Positions 48,571 through 56,074 of a DNA stretch of 64,000 nucleotides are shown in pieces. The notes beneath the pieces were generated by a model. That model saw only the letters and a list, made by a program, of their open reading frames with translations. It made no database searches and was not told where the DNA came from. The translations under genes and the position numbers were made by a program. Every line of letters begins with the position of its first letter. The stretch's first letter is position 1. Source of the stretch: Streptosporangium sp. NBC_01755 (GTDB lineage: Bacteria; Actinomycetota; Actinomycetes; Streptosporangiales; Streptosporangiaceae); the NCBI RefSeq assembly GCF_035917995.1, contig NZ_CP109131.1:868001-932000 (forward strand), read 5' to 3'.

Positions 48571-50820
48571 ATGGAGACGGACACGAAGAGCGACGGGGCG
48601 TTGACGGCGGGTCGCATCGCCTCTGTGCTGTGGTACGACCTGCCCGCCTCCCTGGTGGTCTTCCTGGTGGCCCTGCCCCTCTCGCTGGGCATCGCGGTCG
48701 CCTCGGGAGCACCACTGGCGGCAGGGCTCATCGCCGGTGTGGTGGGCGGTGTGGTGGCGGGTCGGCTGGGCGGCTCCGTCGTCCAGGTGAGCGGGCCCGC
48801 CGCGGGACTGTCCCTGGTGGTCGCCGATCTGGTGGTGCGATACGGCTGGCGGGCCACCTGCATGATCACTTTACTCGCGGGCGTCCTGCAGCTGCTGCTG
48901 GGCGTCTGCCGGGTCGCCCGCTCGGCGCTGGCGGTCTCGCCCGCCGTGGTGCACGGCATGCTCGCCGGGGTGGGCGTGGTGATCGCCCTCGCCCAGCTGC
49001 ACGTGGTGCTCGGCGGGAACCCGCAGCGCTCCGCGATCGAGAACCTGGTCGAGCTGCCCCAGCAGATCATCAACAACCACACGCACGCGGTCTTCGTCGG
49101 CCTGCTGACCATCACGGTCCTGGTCGCCTGGACCCGTATGCCGGCTCGGCTGCGGGTCTTTCCCGCACCGCTGGCGGCCCTGCTCACCGCCTCGGTGACC
49201 GCCTGGACGCTCGGCTGGGAGGTCACCCGGATCGACCTGTCCGCCAGCCTGGACTCCTGGGCCACCCCGCTCTGGCCCACGGGCGACTGGCACGGGATCA
49301 TCGCCGCGGTGCTGATCGTGGCGCTGCTGGCCGGGGTGGAGTCGCTGCTCTGCTCGGTGGCCGTCGACAAGCTGCACGAGGGCAGGCGCTCCGACCTCGA
49401 CAGGGAGCTCATCGGCCAGGGCGTGGCCAACATGGTGACCGGCGTGCTGGGCGGCCTGCCCGTGGCCGGGGTCATCGTCCGCAGCACCACCAACGTCAGG
49501 GCGGGGGCACGCAGCCGCTGGTCCACGATCCTGCACGGCGTGTGGATCCTGCTGTTCGCGGTCGGGCTGGGGTGGATGATCGCCCTGATCCCGATGGAGG
49601 CGCTGGCCGCGCTGCTGGTCTTCATCGGTGTGCAGATGGTCAACATGGGGCATCTGCGTAACCTGCGCGGCCACAGCGAGGTGCCGGTGTACGTCGTCAC
49701 GATGGCCGGGGTGGTGCTGCTCGGCCTCGCCGAGGGAGTGCTGGTCGGCCTCGGCCTCGCCGCGCTGTTCGCGCTGCGCCGCCTCACCCGGGTGACCGTG
49801 CGGGCCACCGCCGAGCCGGACGGCCGCTGGCACGTGGTGATCGCCGGTTCGCTGACCTTCCTGGGGGTGCCCACACTCACCTCGGAGCTGCGGGCCATCC
49901 CGGCGGGGGCCTCGGTCGACCTCGACCTGAACATCGACTTCATGGACAACGCGGCCTTCGAGGCCATCCACGACTGGCGGCACGAGCACGAGCGCGGCGG
50001 CGGGACCGTGGACATCGACGAGATCCACGACGAGTGGTACGCCATGGCGGCCAGCGGCGCCCGGGTGTTTCCCGCCAAGACCCCGCCCCTGGCGCCGGAC
50101 CGGTGGTGGCTGCCCTGGTCCCACCGGCGGAGCGGGCGGCGCTCGATCCGCCACCCGCTGGTCGCCACCCGGCACGCGCCCCGCGGCGGCAGTCCCGCCG
50201 TGCCCGATCTGCTGGCCGGGGCGCGGGAGTTCCACCGGCGCACGGCACCGCTGGTCCGCCCGCTCCTGCACGGGATGGCTCGCGGGCAGGAGCCCTCGCA
50301 TCTCTTCATCACCTGCGCGGACTCCCGCATCGTGCCGAACCTGATCACCGCCAGCGGCCCGGGAGACCTGTTCACCCTTCGCAACCTCGGCAACCTGGTG
50401 CCCCGGCGGGATTCCGTGCCGGCGGACGACTCGGTGGCGGCGACGATCGAGTACGCGACGGACGCGCTCAACGTCCGCACCATCACGGTCTGCGGGCACT
50501 CAGGGTGCGGGGCGATGACCGCGCTGCTCAGCGGGGGCGAGAAGGCCGCGGGTCTGCCGGCGCTGGGCCGCTGGCTACGCCACGGCAACCACACCCTGGC
50601 ACGGTTCATCGCGGGCGAGAGCGCCGGCGACGACGAGGGCCCGCTGGACCGCCTCTGCCGGGTCAACGTGATCCAGCAGCTGGAAAACCTTCGGACCTAC
50701 CCGCAGGTGGACCGGCTGTTCCGCGCCGGGCACCTGGAGCTGGTCGGCATGTACTTCGACATCGGCAGCGCCCGGGTGCACCTGCTGGAGCATCCTCCGA
50801 TCGCGAGCCGTCCGCTGTGA
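48571..50820 (+). CDS. SulP-family transporter fused to beta-carbonic anhydrase
   Basis: 749 residues: SulP membrane domain (about 15-400; PASLVVFLVALPLSLGIAVA, GGSVVQVSGPAAGLS, LLGGLPVAG-type motif as VLGGLPVAGVIVRSTTN), a STAS-like region (about 410-490), a basic linker, and a C-terminal beta-class carbonic anhydrase (about 540-749) with Zn ligands C582 (ITCADSR, D584/R586 dyad), H643 and C646 (CGHSGCG). The natural reading is bicarbonate uptake coupled to CO2/HCO3- interconversion at the membrane. Known as SulP-CA fusions in several bacteria. ATG 48571. Confidence 0.92.
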   Translation: METDTKSDGALTAGRIASVLWYDLPASLVVFLVALPLSLGIAVASGAPLAAGLIAGVVGGVVAGRLGGSVVQVSGPAAGLSLVVADLVVRYGWRATCMITLLAGVLQLLLGVCRVARSALAVSPAVVHGMLAGVGVVIALAQLHVVLGGNPQRSAIENLVELPQQIINNHTHAVFVGLLTITVLVAWTRMPARLRVFPAPLAALLTASVTAWTLGWEVTRIDLSASLDSWATPLWPTGDWHGIIAAVLIVALLAGVESLLCSVAVDKLHEGRRSDLDRELIGQGVANMVTGVLGGLPVAGVIVRSTTNVRAGARSRWSTILHGVWILLFAVGLGWMIALIPMEALAALLVFIGVQMVNMGHLRNLRGHSEVPVYVVTMAGVVLLGLAEGVLVGLGLAALFALRRLTRVTVRATAEPDGRWHVVIAGSLTFLGVPTLTSELRAIPAGASVDLDLNIDFMDNAAFEAIHDWRHEHERGGGTVDIDEIHDEWYAMAASGARVFPAKTPPLAPDRWWLPWSHRRSGRRSIRHPLVATRHAPRGGSPAVPDLLAGAREFHRRTAPLVRPLLHGMARGQEPSHLFITCADSRIVPNLITASGPGDLFTLRNLGNLVPRRDSVPADDSVAATIEYATDALNVRTITVCGHSGCGAMTALLSGGEKAAGLPALGRWLRHGNHTLARFIAGESAGDDEGPLDRLCRVNVIQQLENLRTYPQVDRLFRAGHLELVGMYFDIGSARVHLLEHPPIASRPL

Positions 50821-50888: not shown

Positions 50889-51878
50889 ATGAGAATTCTG
50901 ATCATGGGTGGTTCGATCTTCCTCGGCCGGGCGATCACCCAGGAGGCGCTGCGGCGCGGGCACGAGGTCACGACGTTCAACCGAGGGCGCAGCGGGGTCG
51001 ACCTGCCGGGCGTGGAGGCCGTCAAAGGTGACCGCGAGGTTCCGGAAGACCTGGATCGCCTGGTGGCGGGCCGGGAGTGGGACGCCGTCATCGATGTCCA
51101 CGGGCAGGTCCCGAGGGTCGTCGGCGAGTCGGTGCGGAGGCTCGGCGGCCGGGCAGGCACCTACGCGTACATCTCCAGCATCTCGGCCATCTCCGACTTT
51201 CCCGAGCGGGAGTGCGACGAGAGCTCGCCACGCTACGAGTGCGCGCCGGACGCGGGGCCCGAGGACGGTCACTACGGCATCCTCAAGGCGGGCTGCGAGC
51301 GGGCGGTGGAGGGCTTCGACGGCAACGCGCTGATCATCCAGCCGGGTCTCATTCTCGGCCCGTACGAGAACGTGGGCCGCCTGCCCTGGTGGCTGGACCG
51401 GATCTCCCGAGGCGGACGGGTCCTGGCCCCTGGTGACCCGGACCGGGCGATGCAGCTCATCGACGCCCGCGACATCGCCGCGTTCGTCCTCACCCATGCC
51501 GAGGCCGGGACGGCCGACCGCTTCCTCACCAGCGGGGTGCGGGGCAACATCACCTACGGCGGCTGGCTGGCCGAGTGCCGCGCGGCGACCGGTTCGGACG
51601 CCGAGTTCGTCTGGGTCGACGACCGCTTCCTGCTCGATCGGGAGGTGTCGCCGTGGAGCGAGTTCCCCGTCTGGACTCCCGGCGGTCCCGAGTTCGCCGG
51701 GGTCTGGCTGCCGTCGTCGGCGAAGGCCATCGCGGCCGGGCTGACCTGCCGCCCGGTCGCCGAGACCGTACGCGACACCTGGGCGTGGCTGGGTGAGGTC
51801 CCCCCGGGCGAGCGCGCGTTCCGCGGGCACGGCATCGACCCGGAGAAGGAGGCCGGAATCCTGGCCGAGTGGGCATAG
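50889..51878 (+). CDS. NAD-dependent epimerase/dehydratase family protein
   Basis: 329 residues. Rossmann start RILIMGGSIFLGRAITQEAL (GGxxFLG variant of atypical SDRs), YAYISSISA, YGILKAGCERAV (Tyr-x-x-x-Lys), then a substrate domain ending with DTWAWLGEV. This isoflavone-reductase-like subgroup is common in actinomycetes; the substrate is unknown. It is the intact counterpart of the deleted pseudogene at 3066-3389. Its 3' end is overlapped by the antisense read-through of iscB. Confidence 0.88.
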   Translation: MRILIMGGSIFLGRAITQEALRRGHEVTTFNRGRSGVDLPGVEAVKGDREVPEDLDRLVAGREWDAVIDVHGQVPRVVGESVRRLGGRAGTYAYISSISAISDFPERECDESSPRYECAPDAGPEDGHYGILKAGCERAVEGFDGNALIIQPGLILGPYENVGRLPWWLDRISRGGRVLAPGDPDRAMQLIDARDIAAFVLTHAEAGTADRFLTSGVRGNITYGGWLAECRAATGSDAEFVWVDDRFLLDREVSPWSEFPVWTPGGPEFAGVWLPSSAKAIAAGLTCRPVAETVRDTWAWLGEVPPGERAFRGHGIDPEKEAGILAEWA

Positions 51879-53760
51879 GGCGTGCCCGTGACTCCTCCGC
51901 TCCCCCCGGGTACGCCTTCGGAGGAGTGGCGAGGGCTCGTGACGGCGAGGGCTCGTGACGGCGAGGGCTCGTGACGGCGAGGGCTCGTGACGGCGAGGGC
52001 TCGTGACGGCGGAGGCTCGTGACGGCGGAGGCTCGTGACGGCGGAGGCCGAGCGGCTCGCCGCTCTGGGCGCCCCGAGATTCGCAAGGCGGAGGAGTGGG
52101 GAGGATGCCGGACCTCATGACCGACCCCGAGACCGACCCCGAGGGTAATGAGTTCTTCCTGCGGTAGGGATGTATTTCTACGCATACATCGGGTCGGCGG
52201 AAACATAGGGTCGCGGCTGTCCGGCTCCGTCCCCCGAACGCCGGACGGCGGTCCACACTCCCAGGGCCGAGGGTGGAGGGCTACCGATATCGTCCTCCAC
52301 CCACCCAACCCCGACCCGAGCCGATTCACCAGAACCTCCCGAGGATGCCCCGGCCTTCGGGCCGGGGCGGAATCGGGAGCGGGAGGGCCGCCAAGGCCCG
52401 AGCGTGCCCTGACCGGTCGGTCATTTCGATCGGCTTCTTTCTGAGTCGTGTAGCCGTAGCCGTCCGCGCGTTGAAGGTGGCGAACATGCCGGTGGTTGAT
52501 CCCGGCGACGCGACCGTGCCGGGTGGTGATGTCGAACGAGCCGGAGGAGCGGACCAGGACTCGCCCGAGGTGAACCCCGGCCTTCTTGCCCGCCGGGACG
52601 TTCGCCCGGACCAGGTCGCCGGTTTGGAAGCCGTGGCGCAGTTTGCTCCGTGGCCGGACAAGACGGGGGAACCCGTATCGGTCGGGGGTGGTGCGGGCGT
52701 AGGCGCCGCGACCGGTCGCCGCGACCACCAGGACCGTCGACGGCCAGGCGGTCACGCTCTCCAGTTCGCCGACGTGCAACGCGTCCAACGTGTGCGACTT
52801 CGGCGCGCCGGTACGCGACCGGTTCCACTTCGTACGACCGCCGGAGGCGCCTGCCACGGGTAGGCCGGTGGCCTCCAGCGCCTGCCACAGTGCCCAGCGG
52901 GTGGTGTTGACGGCGGCGGCGTCGCACAGTGGCGCTTTCGCCTGCTTGAGGATCTTCGCCAGGATTGCGGGTCTGGTTTTCAGGAACTCCTGCACGGGGG
53001 TGGCGTTCTTGGTCTGGTTACAGCCGACGCAGGCCAGGGTGAGGTTGCTGACACGGTCGGAGCCGCCCCGGCTGCGGGGGTGGATGTGGTCAAGGTTCAC
53101 AGGTACGCCGCTCGCGCCGCAGTAGGCGCAGGTGCGCCCCCACTTGGCCAGCAGGTATTCGCGGACCTCGTACCCGGCGAGGGTGCCCTGCTGATACTCC
53201 ACTCCTTCGAGCGGCCGCCCGGCCGACAGGGCGTGAGTGTCGAAGGAGACCCGCTCCACGTGCACGGCGGCCACGGGCACCCACCGACTCAGCCGCGCCA
53301 CCCACGACAAGGTGGTGTCGACGCGGTGGCGCAGCGACGGCGCGAGCCACCCTTTCGGCTTGGTCCGGTTGAGAAACCGGGGGGCGCGGTAACGCAGGTT
53401 CCGCCCCCGGCGGGCACGGCGCAGTGCGGCCCGCGAGGCGAGCCTGTCACGGATCAGCGCGCCCCGGTGGTCGAGCTGGATCGCATACCGGCCGGCCCGG
53501 CTACCGTCATGGTCGATGAACACGGCCAGGCCGGTGTGCCTGGAGCCGGGGTCGATACCGACCTGCAGGCCTGCCACGGTGGAATCGGCCACCGACCGGT
53601 CCTTGAGGCGGATGACGAACGGGGTGTGGCGGTGAACCACCGCTCGCCCGGCCGCCAGCAGGCGGCGGGCGCGGGCGGGGTGGCAGGGGTCGAGCGGGTG
53701 GCCGCGGGCGTCCAGGACGAACACGACAGGGTGAACCTCACGGTTCGCTCCCTCGGACAC
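51550..53760 (-). CDS. iscB: IscB RNA-guided nuclease (RuvC + HNH)
   Basis: The core is about 445 residues from GTG 53760 (GAGGA 7 nt upstream) to about 52425. Domain order fits IscB: N-terminal PLMP-type segment (VFVLDARGHPLDPCHPARAR), RuvC-I with D70 (VGIDPGSRHTG), Arg-rich bridge helix (RAALRRARRGRNLRYR), RuvC-II with E169 (VHVERVSFD), HNH with C211/C214, D224-H225, C244/C247 and N248, RuvC-III with H323/D326 (KSHTLDALHV), and a C-terminal TAM-interacting-type region to LQRADGYGY. All catalytic residues are present. IscB nucleases, ancestors of Cas9, cut DNA guided by omega-RNA encoded just upstream. Beyond the normal end the frame has no stop until 51550, crossing the 16-bp repeat and the antisense of the epimerase; that tail is unlikely to be functional. 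An in-frame ATG at 53970 with AAGGAGG would add 70 residues. No tnpA is present. Confidence 0.9.
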   Translation of the reverse strand: MSEGANREVHPVVFVLDARGHPLDPCHPARARRLLAAGRAVVHRHTPFVIRLKDRSVADSTVAGLQVGIDPGSRHTGLAVFIDHDGSRAGRYAIQLDHRGALIRDRLASRAALRRARRGRNLRYRAPRFLNRTKPKGWLAPSLRHRVDTTLSWVARLSRWVPVAAVHVERVSFDTHALSAGRPLEGVEYQQGTLAGYEVREYLLAKWGRTCAYCGASGVPVNLDHIHPRSRGGSDRVSNLTLACVGCNQTKNATPVQEFLKTRPAILAKILKQAKAPLCDAAAVNTTRWALWQALEATGLPVAGASGGRTKWNRSRTGAPKSHTLDALHVGELESVTAWPSTVLVVAATGRGAYARTTPDRYGFPRLVRPRSKLRHGFQTGDLVRANVPAGKKAGVHLGRVLVRSSGSFDITTRHGRVAGINHRHVRHLQRADGYGYTTQKEADRNDRPVRARSGLGGPPAPDSAPARRPGHPREVLVNRLGSGLGGWRTISVALHPRPWECGPPSGVRGTEPDSRDPMFPPTRCMRRNTSLPQEELITLGVGLGVGHEVRHPPHSSALRISGRPERRAARPPPSRASAVTSLRRHEPSPSRALAVTSPRRHEPSPSRALATPPKAYPGGAEESRARPMPTRPGFRPPSPGRCRARGTRARPGGPHPATPRCRVRSRRPGGRSARPRWPSPTTAARPRRTRDRRESRRGTRSTATPPDRAGSGRRPRRTRRPNRSPRGTRPASRRR
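51891..51927. terminator. Terminator hairpin after epimerase
   Basis: ACTCCTCCG and CGGAGGAGT, perfect 9-bp arms with a 19-nt loop, 12 bp after the epimerase stop. No T-run. The word CGGAGGAGTGG recurs at about 52089. Confidence 0.55.
51931..52050. repeat. 16-bp tandem repeat, 7 copies
   Basis: Five units GAGGGCTCGTGACGGC (51931, 51947, 51963, 51979, 51995), two variants GGAGGCTCGTGACGGC (52011, 52027) and a partial eighth. There are no spacers, so this is not CRISPR. Because 16 is not a multiple of three, the minus-strand read-through of iscB translates it as a 16-residue periodic peptide without stops. Confidence 0.93.
52336..52379. other. UUCG hairpin at the 3' end of the IscB element
   Basis: Nested perfect helices: outer CTCCCGA/TCGGGAG and inner GCCCCGGCC-TTCG-GGCCGGGGC. 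Such subterminal hairpins are typical right ends of actinobacterial IS200/IS605-related elements, and it marks where iscB would normally already have stopped. It may double as a transcription terminator. Confidence 0.65.
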
Positions 53761-54065
53761 CGAAGCATCCTCGGGGTGACGCCGAGCAGACCGGGTGCCG
53801 GTCCGCTCGATCTCCCCTCGCCCGGGTTGAACACCAGGTACCGCCTGACAGCGGTGTCCGTGAGCCGTTTCGTGCCCACCCTCGGGCGTGTCTGCTCCCA
53901 CGAATTCCAGAGCGGCAGGCTGAGGAAGCACCTGCCGGTGGGTCTGCGATCTCGTGTTCAACGTAGCCATCAAAACGCACCTCCTTGAGCGATGGCCAGG
54001 GCTGGTCAACGCGGGGCTTCAAAGCGCATTACCGCGCCTCAAGCCCCCTCCTTCGGGAGGGGGTC
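53761..54065 (-). ncRNA. Putative omega-RNA (HEARO-type) region upstream of iscB
   Basis: The 300 bp before iscB have no protein homology but strong nested pairing on the minus strand: CCCAC/GTGGG (53938-42/53897-901) enclosing GGCAGG/CCTGCC (53931-36/53914-19), then ACCGC/GCGGT inside GACACC/GGTGTT nearer the gene, and a GC hairpin at 54044-54063 at the far end. In IscB systems the omega-RNA lies exactly here, with its guide at the 5' end derived from flanking DNA. The exact ends and guide cannot be fixed by eye. Confidence 0.6.
54044..54063. other. UUCG hairpin at the 5' end of the IscB element
   Basis: CCCCCTCC-TTCG-GGAGGGGG, a perfect 8-bp stem with a UUCG loop in the plus orientation, mirroring the hairpin at the other end of the element. 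It could be the left-end structure or the terminator of the upstream DUF1579-like gene, whose stop is 49 bp away. Confidence 0.55.
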
Positions 54066-54111
54066 GTTGACGGGCTCCCATCCCGGCCCGGGCACGGGGA
54101 GCGGCCCCGCG

Positions 54112-54901: not shown

Positions 54902-56074
54902 ATGGCTGAGTGGCACGCGTTACGGGAAGAGCTGGTCTCGCAGGTACGCACGCGGGGGATCAGCGAGGTGGTGACCGACGCGCTGCGGGCGGTGCCGCGA
55001 CATGTGTTCCTGCCGGACCTTCCGGCGGAGACCGTCTACCGGGACGACGCGATCGTTACCAAACGCGACGGCGGCGGCCGGCCGATCAGCTCCTCCTCCC
55101 AGCCGGCGATCATGGCCCTGATGCTCGACCAGCTCGGAGTGGAGCCCGGGCAGCGGGTACTGGAGATCGGGACCGGGACGGGCTACAACGCCGCGCTCCT
55201 CGCCCACCTGGTGGGGCCGGAGGGCCAGGTCGTGAGCGTCGACATCGACCCCGAGCTGGTGACGCTCGCCGGGGAGCACCTGGCGGTCGCGGGACACCCC
55301 GAGGTGAGGCTGGTGTGCGGCGACGGATCCGAGGGGTTCTGGCCGGGGGCGCCCTACGACCGGGTGATCTCCACCGTCGGCGTGTGGGACCTGGCACCGG
55401 CCTGGCTTGGGCAGCTCGGGCCCGGTGGGCGCCTCGTGGCCCCGCTGGACCTGCGGGGGGTGCAGCGCTCGGTGGCGATGGAGCGCCGGAACGGGCACTG
55501 GGTGAGCCGCTCGGTGCTGCCCTGCGGTTTCATGCGGATGCGCGGGCCCTTCGCGGGCCCTGAGACGACCCTGGTGCTGGACCAGGAGTCAGACCTGACG
55601 ATCTCACTGCCCGATGCGAGCGAGATCGGCGACGTGCTGGCGGCGCTCGACGGGCCCGCGGTCGAGCTGTCCACCGAGATCAGCATCGGCTTCTCCCAGC
55701 TCTTCGACGGGCTGAGCCTCTGGCTGGCGGTGCACGAGCCCCGCTGGTGCACGATATCGGAGGCGCGGCCGGGGTGGCTGGCCTCGCCCCCGCTCGACCT
55801 GACGGGGTTCAGGATGGCCGTCGGGATCGTCGAGCGCGACAACCTCTGCATGCTGGAGCCGTCGCCGGACGGCACCCTGATCGCTCGCGGCCACGGGCCG
55901 GACAGGCTGCGGCTCGCGGGCGAGCTGGTCGCCCACGTCCAGGCGTGGGACATGGCGGACCGCCCCATGACGACCGGACTCCGGATCGAGGCCTACCTGA
56001 ATGACCCTCCGAGTGGTGGGCTGCTCCTCCGTAAGCGCCACGCCACCCTCGCCCTGTCGTGGAAGGACTCCTGA
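54902..56074 (+). CDS. PCMT-type protein methyltransferase with C-terminal extension
   Basis: 390 residues. The first 200 are an L-isoaspartyl O-methyltransferase fold: SSSSQPAIMALMLDQLGVEP, then VLEIGTGTGYNAALLAHLVG (SAM site) and RVISTVGVWDLAPAW. The remaining 190 residues are a family-specific extension seen in actinomycete paralogues, some of which modify lanthipeptides (FxLD systems). No lanthipeptide synthetase or precursor is nearby, so either protein repair or an orphan peptide modifier is possible. ATG 54902 follows GGAGG. Confidence 0.85.
   Translation: MAEWHALREELVSQVRTRGISEVVTDALRAVPRHVFLPDLPAETVYRDDAIVTKRDGGGRPISSSSQPAIMALMLDQLGVEPGQRVLEIGTGTGYNAALLAHLVGPEGQVVSVDIDPELVTLAGEHLAVAGHPEVRLVCGDGSEGFWPGAPYDRVISTVGVWDLAPAWLGQLGPGGRLVAPLDLRGVQRSVAMERRNGHWVSRSVLPCGFMRMRGPFAGPETTLVLDQESDLTISLPDASEIGDVLAALDGPAVELSTEISIGFSQLFDGLSLWLAVHEPRWCTISEARPGWLASPPLDLTGFRMAVGIVERDNLCMLEPSPDGTLIARGHGPDRLRLAGELVAHVQAWDMADRPMTTGLRIEAYLNDPPSGGLLLRKRHATLALSWKDS

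Follow-up and report, generated by a model that had tools for sequence, protein, structure and literature searches.

An IscB and omega-RNA element in Streptosporangium sp. NBC_01755 and the insertion of its family before RTGR tetramers, often at host start codons

The element and its parts

The window analysed here is a stretch of 64,000 nucleotides from the 8.15-Mb, single-contig genome of Streptosporangium sp. NBC_01755 (NZ_CP109131.1, positions 868,001 to 932,000), and on its minus strand, at 52330-54071, lies an element of 1742 bp that consists of an omega-RNA followed by a gene for the RNA-guided endonuclease IscB. Because copies at unrelated sites could be aligned with one another and with empty sites, the element could be set to these limits, without target duplication; in the copies the left end is sharp at GTCAACG and the right end falls before a tetramer RTGR. 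The window locus is unoccupied in a relative (G002, 95% identity), and this empty-site comparison, proposed in a preliminary description made from the sequence alone, fixed the ends and gave both the tetramer, GTGA (52326-52329, minus strand, outside the element), and the flank that we read as the guide, GCCGGGATGGGAGCCC (54072-54087, minus strand). We put at roughly 0.7 the probability that the element is a non-autonomous ISC-type (IS200/IS605-like) transposon of omega-RNA and iscB, inserting 5′ of RTGR and mostly at host start codons, by the mechanism proposed below. In itself the window copy is unremarkable, a known kind of element with slight damage; what merits following is the family-wide insertion rule.

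The omega-RNA occupies 53806-54071 (minus strand) and matches the Rfam family HEARO (RF02033) with 87.5 bits against a cut-off of 83, so that the covariance search put forward in the preliminary description bore out its putative omega-RNA upstream of iscB; in an alignment of 14 copies, 28 of the 71 predicted base pairs show changes on both sides. Hairpins had been described at both ends and are present, on the left at 54044-54063 (CCCCCTCC-CGAA-GGAGGGGG) and on the right at 52348-52367 (CCCCGGCC-CGAA-GGCCGGGG), both on the minus strand, although the UUCG loop attributed to them belongs to the opposite strand only, the loop in the iscB sense being CGAA. Subterminal hairpins, a fixed tetramer and the lack of a target duplication are traits of IS200/IS605-type elements. 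Between the right hairpin and the tetramer, at 52335-52340 (minus strand), stands GGGAGG, which resembles a Shine–Dalgarno (SD) sequence (consensus compared, AAAGGAGGTGA).

The iscB coding region extends over 52420-53760 (minus strand), with the conserved part beginning at 53724. The open reading frame (ORF) that contains it (51550-54009, minus strand) matches NF040563, ‘RNA-guided endonuclease IscB’, with 425 bits (cut-off 175; E = 1.4e-127), and the protein also matches Pfam RRXRR and HNH and, by sequence, IscBs of solved structure, among them TbaIscB and OgeuIscB. The catalytic set is complete: D58, E157, D212-H213, N236 and D314, together with the four cysteines C199, C202, C232 and C235, are invariant across seven aligned copies (residues are counted from 53724; the numbering of the preliminary description starts 12 residues further upstream). 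Its claim of an IscB with intact RuvC and HNH catalytic residues and four cysteines is thereby confirmed, and neither of the outcomes that it named as arguing against its proposal, the lack of a covariance hit and the loss of catalytic residues, was found here; yet the stop codon of iscB is lost, and the RuvC-I aspartate is replaced by asparagine in L027 (own genome, 7.14 Mb) and L040, two of the 11 further genus copies that were checked, both with an otherwise open iscB.

In all seven other type A junction copies (the end types A and B being separated by their right-end sequence) the iscB stop sits 87 nt before the junction. At the corresponding place in the window, 52417-52419 (minus strand), CGA stands where sister copies have TGA, and consequently the ORF continues for 289 codons, past the element end and into the antisense strand of an epimerase gene (50889-51878). 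The tail at 51550-52416 (minus strand) is read-through rather than genuine iscB, and position 51550, earlier given as the limit of the element, is an artefact of the lost stop. A perfect SD sequence, AAGGAGGT, followed by ATG lies within the omega-RNA at 53968-53986 (minus strand) and may mark an earlier iscB start. The iscB frame is kept through the 3′ part of the omega-RNA (length a multiple of three, no stop) in all 13 copies measured, two of the 15 being unmeasured, and the putative N-terminal extension encoded there shows no codon-position bias (85/93/101 and 321/407/401, compared with 70/74/184 and 181/119/462 in iscB proper).

The preliminary description had called this IscB solitary. 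The same genome, however, carries six iscB copies of full length, another with an internal deletion and a short fragment, as well as nine HEARO matches, five of them over the cut-off. Likewise, the statement that TnpA is missing holds within the element, a genome-wide search placing no Y1 domain between 52330 and 54071, but not for the genome, which has ten Y1 transposase matches, five of them near-complete (at least 118 of 121 model positions). With no TnpA of its own and Y1 domains elsewhere in the genome, the element is best described as a non-autonomous member of the IS200/IS605 type. That part of the earlier proposal stands; its other part, domestication, does not, since the copies of this family are scattered over varying sites, their ends are sharp and the corresponding sites are empty in relatives. 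A solitary or domesticated copy was rejected on account of the multiple copies and the empty site in a close relative. The change in RuvC-I of two sister copies, and the occurrence elsewhere of a Streptomyces iscB beside the small RNA Ms_IGR-5 in several species, might be taken to suggest a host gene regulating its neighbours, but with several copies at variable sites, empty sites in close relatives and intact nuclease residues in the window copy we regard this as very improbable.

The window copy follows the end and tetramer rules at an intergenic GTGA and, to judge from the lost stop and from the lack of a gene behind GTGA, is probably an ageing copy with intact nuclease domains. A stronger form of this view, that it is a decaying relic with its stop lost, no host gene behind it and no TnpA of its own, seems to us possible but rather doubtful. 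The CGA codon speaks for it, as do the mismatches that follow GTGA, distributed over codon positions as 4/2/2 without periodicity, and so do the altered RuvC-I residue of the two other genus copies and the existence of deleted copies. Against it, the catalytic residues and the HEARO RNA are all intact, and the ratio of nonsynonymous to synonymous substitution rates of the window iscB, compared with three other type A copies, is 0.25-0.32, a value that mostly reflects older history.

Junctions, start codons and the right end

Sharp ends, empty sites, a constant tetramer, its frequent position on a start codon and, in many actinobacterial copies, an SD-like right end recur throughout the family. 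In 18 junctions from the genus the tetramer is GTGA in all eight of type A and ATGA or ATGG in all ten of type B. For 15 sites the two flanks were joined and used to search 16 genus genomes, and a relative with an empty site was found for every one; 14 of these aligned without gaps for at least 12 nt on either side of the junction, and for L026 the alignment was good for the right flank only. When the ends of homology between copies were determined without regard to genes, they fell directly after RTGN in all 14 genus copies and in 29 of 67 other tails; in the remaining tails homology ends elsewhere, in many within the 3′ part of iscB, and a further 11 tails had no usable pair. For a wider set, 48 junctions were picked by eye as clear from 80 loci, the other 32 comprising four that repeat genus copies, eight of a Streptomyces group and 20 left out. 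C-terminal fragments (L033, L051, G007:33425, G002:C17, G002:C4) and N-terminal pieces at contig edges (L050, L057) were not used as junctions. Near the C-terminus of IscB, the eight GTGA elements of the genus have A or T and the ten ATGR elements have Q, a difference that is confounded with end type.

In at least 12 of the 18 genus junctions a host gene in the same orientation starts at the tetramer and encodes a protein with a Pfam family. This count comes from 14 proteins scanned from RTG, of which only those at L035 and L040 gave no family; the window copy, L028, L030 and L056 were outside the scan, and apart from the window copy the proportion is 12 of 17. The families found include imidazoleglycerol-phosphate dehydratase (HisB), undecaprenyl diphosphate synthase, homoserine dehydrogenase, serine dehydratase, OsmC, CbiX and an ABC-2 permease, and hisB, uppS, hom and sdaA are thus among the host genes behind the junction. 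The same pattern is seen in other actinobacteria and in proteobacteria: 37 of the 46 proteins scanned from the 48 wider junctions have a Pfam family, including the DNA polymerase III beta subunit, inosine monophosphate (IMP) dehydrogenase, RuvA, RuvX, YbeY and YicC, where L148 and L170, and likewise L164 and L180, share a site and so are not independent. Taken together, 49 of 60 proteins have a family, and in 28 of the 49 the domain begins within the first 30 residues and at profile position 10 or lower. The start annotated in RefSeq coincides exactly with the junction picked by eye in four of nine annotated plasmid loci examined, one of the nine being a copy on a Deinococcus plasmid, where it stands between parA and parB. 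Substitutions that separate filled from empty sites downstream of the junction, in a strict recount over 37 alignments and 12 sites, are distributed over the codon positions of the RTG frame as 117/99/350.

The window contains 847 RTGA sites on both strands, and if, as an upper bound, 64 genes in its 64 kb are assumed all to start with RTGA, 12 start placements in 18 have p ~4e-10. An automatic start test, requiring an open frame of at least 60 codons and a contrast in G+C content at third codon positions, was passed by 13 of the 18 IscB junctions and by 254 of 838 window RTGA sites (p ~3e-4). Since the copies are related by descent, both p values overstate the independence of the placements.

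The bases shortly before the junction often resemble a ribosome-binding site. An SD match of at least 5 nt precedes RTG in 13 of 18 genus and 18 of 48 wider junctions, compared with 86 of the 847 window RTGA sites; for matches of at least 6 nt the figures are 11 of 18 and 10 of 48 (21 of 66 together) against 23 of 847. The sequences vary among actinobacterial copies (GGAGGT, AAGGAG, AAAGGA, GGAGG). In 19 of the 66 junctions the iscB stop lies between −12 and +10 of the host start, in many cases overlapping it as ATGA or TGATG.

Right ends also occur alone. A right-end pattern was found at ten places in the window's own genome (one with a reversed control): six are known elements, three are solo ends, the ORFs behind them having 341, 234 and 425 codons, and the tenth is probably a chance match. 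Of 20 further regions read in the genus, seven belong to TnpB copies in G001 and two adjoin TnpB. In each of the remaining 11, an ORF starting at RTG spans 122-222 codons inside the stretch retrieved; a HEARO signature is missing there, and neither iscB nor TnpB of matching kind is listed in those regions. Because the pattern itself demands RTGR, only the ORFs count as evidence. The candidate solo right ends directly before ORFs are L251, L252, L253, L295-L301 and L303-L306; judged by N-terminal sequence, one gene bears such an end in three species (L252, L299, L301) and another in two (L253, L300). These may be transposon ends that were kept as ribosome-binding sites of host genes.

Proposed mechanism and competing explanations

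IscB guides lie 5′ of the omega-RNA scaffold, and it is from its position relative to the HEARO 5′ end that GCCGGGATGGGAGCCC is taken as the guide, its length of 16 nt being an assumption. On this basis we propose the following course of events. The element would insert directly 5′ of an RTGR tetramer, without target duplication, presumably through a Y1 TnpA acting in trans. The host promoter would then transcribe the host 5′ leader, the omega-RNA, iscB and the host gene as one RNA, in which the host leader, that is, the displaced region of the native ribosome-binding site, would become the guide, while the end of the element would replace that site and the host gene would stay translated, in type B copies probably with the help of the overlap between the iscB stop and the host start codon. 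The omega-RNA–IscB complex would cut alleles that lack the element at the native ribosome-binding site and start codon, these serving as guide match and target-adjacent motif (TAM). At the left junction of the element the guide is followed by GTCA rather than GTGA, and the resident element would thereby be spared. Elsewhere in the genome the guide followed by GTGA has five matches, all with three mismatches, against four for a reversed-pattern control.

In its boldest form the proposal is of a widespread group of RNA-guided transposons that address the translation start itself, the start codon being the TAM, the native ribosome-binding site the guide, the host promoter the source of the guide RNA and the element end the replacement ribosome-binding site. 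We advance this tentatively, as something that has close to an even chance of being correct. If it is, insertions could persist before core genes (dnaN, IMP dehydrogenase, an era-like gene, uppS), and solo ends would later remain as working ribosome-binding sites.

A number of observations weigh against these proposals. The window copy has no gene behind its GTGA, so the start-codon rule fails there. The three genus junctions L028, L030 and L056 have just 24, 7 and 20 codons from RTG. Among the 20 wider loci left out, six misfit by eye: L146 and L169 lack a coding frame behind the tetramer, L160 and L183 have a short leader ORF only, the start in L153 lies 16-19 nt further on, and L172 looks gene-internal. 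Substitutions upstream of the junction, counted by distance, are periodic too (115/95/257), because the gene upstream reaches as far as the junction at several sites. The start test is a weak one, 254 of the 838 window sites passing it, and SD sequences are mostly absent from Nocardiopsis and gammaproteobacterial copies. TAMs reported for other IscB enzymes are NTAAA for OrufIscB and NWRGNA for engineered OgeuIscB (PMC13180657).

The TnpB elements of the genus, which served as a control, must be added to this list. They bear the same end, with the tetramer reading TCAT next to tnpB, and 12 of the 17 found outside G001 pass the start test, compared with two of seven near-identical copies in G001. 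L317 and L318 are one orthologous site, three further loci were left unassigned by the script, and the rows left out were seven of 30 loci that were truncated or lacked the shared end, as well as rows without a locus, except the G001 copies. The placement of IscB elements does not differ from that of the 17 TnpB elements (Fisher p = 1.0), nor significantly from that of the G001 copies (p = 0.06). A start targeting specific to IscB, which we had considered, is accordingly unsupported: with TnpB elements placed alike, start placement appears to come from the end that they share and from its survival, and not from IscB alone, and the G001 burst points to selection after random insertion.

It is quite possible, if somewhat short of an even chance, that survivorship alone is at work, with the transposase cutting at any RTGR, insertions at start codons persisting as the little harmful ones, and the SD-like bases being no more than the recognition site of the transposase. 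The similar bias of the TnpB elements and the G001 burst are what this explanation would lead one to expect, and it also suits the ends of Nocardiopsis and gammaproteobacterial copies, which sit at start codons though mostly without an SD sequence. It accounts less well for SD-like bases that recur, in differing sequence, across actinobacterial copies and above the window background, or for candidate solo ends kept before orthologous genes. We retain as the preferred reading a transposon that inserts before RTGR, mostly at start codons, and whose end may take over ribosome binding for the host gene.

Relation to known systems and further observations

Earlier papers on HEARO and ISC elements reportedly noted ATGA/GTGA or 4-bp targets. 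The window element shares with ISC/IscB transposons that carry a HEARO omega-RNA its protein domains, the omega-RNA, subterminal hairpins and a 4-bp target without duplication, and differs from them in the junction, which here lies mostly on host start codons, and in the ribosome-binding-site-like end. We recognised no description of start-codon insertion by IscB elements, or of its reading as ribosome-binding-site replacement, in the literature searched, largely at title and abstract level. TAMs of the NTGA/ATGA/NTGG kind have been described for the IsrB nickases, which thus resemble the window family in their 3′ TAM and have a linker where the window protein has its HNH domain (PMC9581776). 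OrufIscB and OgeuIscB are likewise built of IscB, omega-RNA and a 3′ TAM, although the TAMs given for them are not RTGR (PMC13180657). The TnpB elements of IS605 type in the genus share the SD-bearing end and the tetramer, often at start-like codons; tnpB, however, points away from the host gene, whereas iscB points towards it. IStrons are also insertion sequences that limit harm to the host, using a self-splicing intron and not a replacement ribosome-binding site (PMC4227781).

A start-codon rule would explain how a guide that lies beyond the element comes to be transcribed, and how IscB elements lacking a transposase of their own can endure beside core genes. It also supplies natural guide–TAM pairs for actinobacterial IscBs, and it suggests that the end of a transposon can turn into the ribosome-binding site of a host gene.

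An association with TnpA is rare among HEARO enzymes (PMC9755519). A search for the TnpA partner by end similarity gave scores of 38 for L021 (shuffled maximum 23) and 42 for L022 (shuffled maximum 24), these two being the highest among 32 comparisons, each shuffled 12 times, and the right end of the L256 element had no match in this comparison; the assignment of a partner from these end sequences is suggestive only. A 21-nt stretch identical to the hairpin of the sister copy L029 adjoins a broken TnpA. Close IscB relatives (E ≤ 1e-120) occur in 47 of 297 genomes of the order in the wider draw, and only diverged relatives were found in phages and plasmids, the best plasmid match having 62% identity and all 63 phage records less than 60%.

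Miniature elements, in which iscB is internally deleted and the right end and a recognisable left end are kept, were found at L028 (own genome, 4.84 Mb) and at L041 and L138 (G001). L028 has a HEARO match over the cut-off, and the G001 copies have part of the omega-RNA and the left end GTCGACG. In eight Streptomyces loci (L199, L200, L202, L204, L205, L207, L208 and L214) iscB occupies apparently one shared genomic site; it lies just upstream of the small RNA family Ms_IGR-5 in all six loci scanned, with no HEARO match over the cut-off, and its residues checked are intact except for a change of the HNH aspartate to glutamate in L204, L207 and L214. In this group iscB may have been domesticated or maintained by vertical descent.

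In the interval that separates the element from the epimerase gene, at 51928-52043, a 16-bp unit is repeated 7.2 times in tandem with 98% matches. An ORF of 749 amino acids at 48571-50820 reads by eye as a fusion of a SulP-type transporter with a carbonic anhydrase, and at 54902-56074 there is a gene of peptide-maturation type for an FxLD-system methyltransferase (TIGR04364, over the cut-off).

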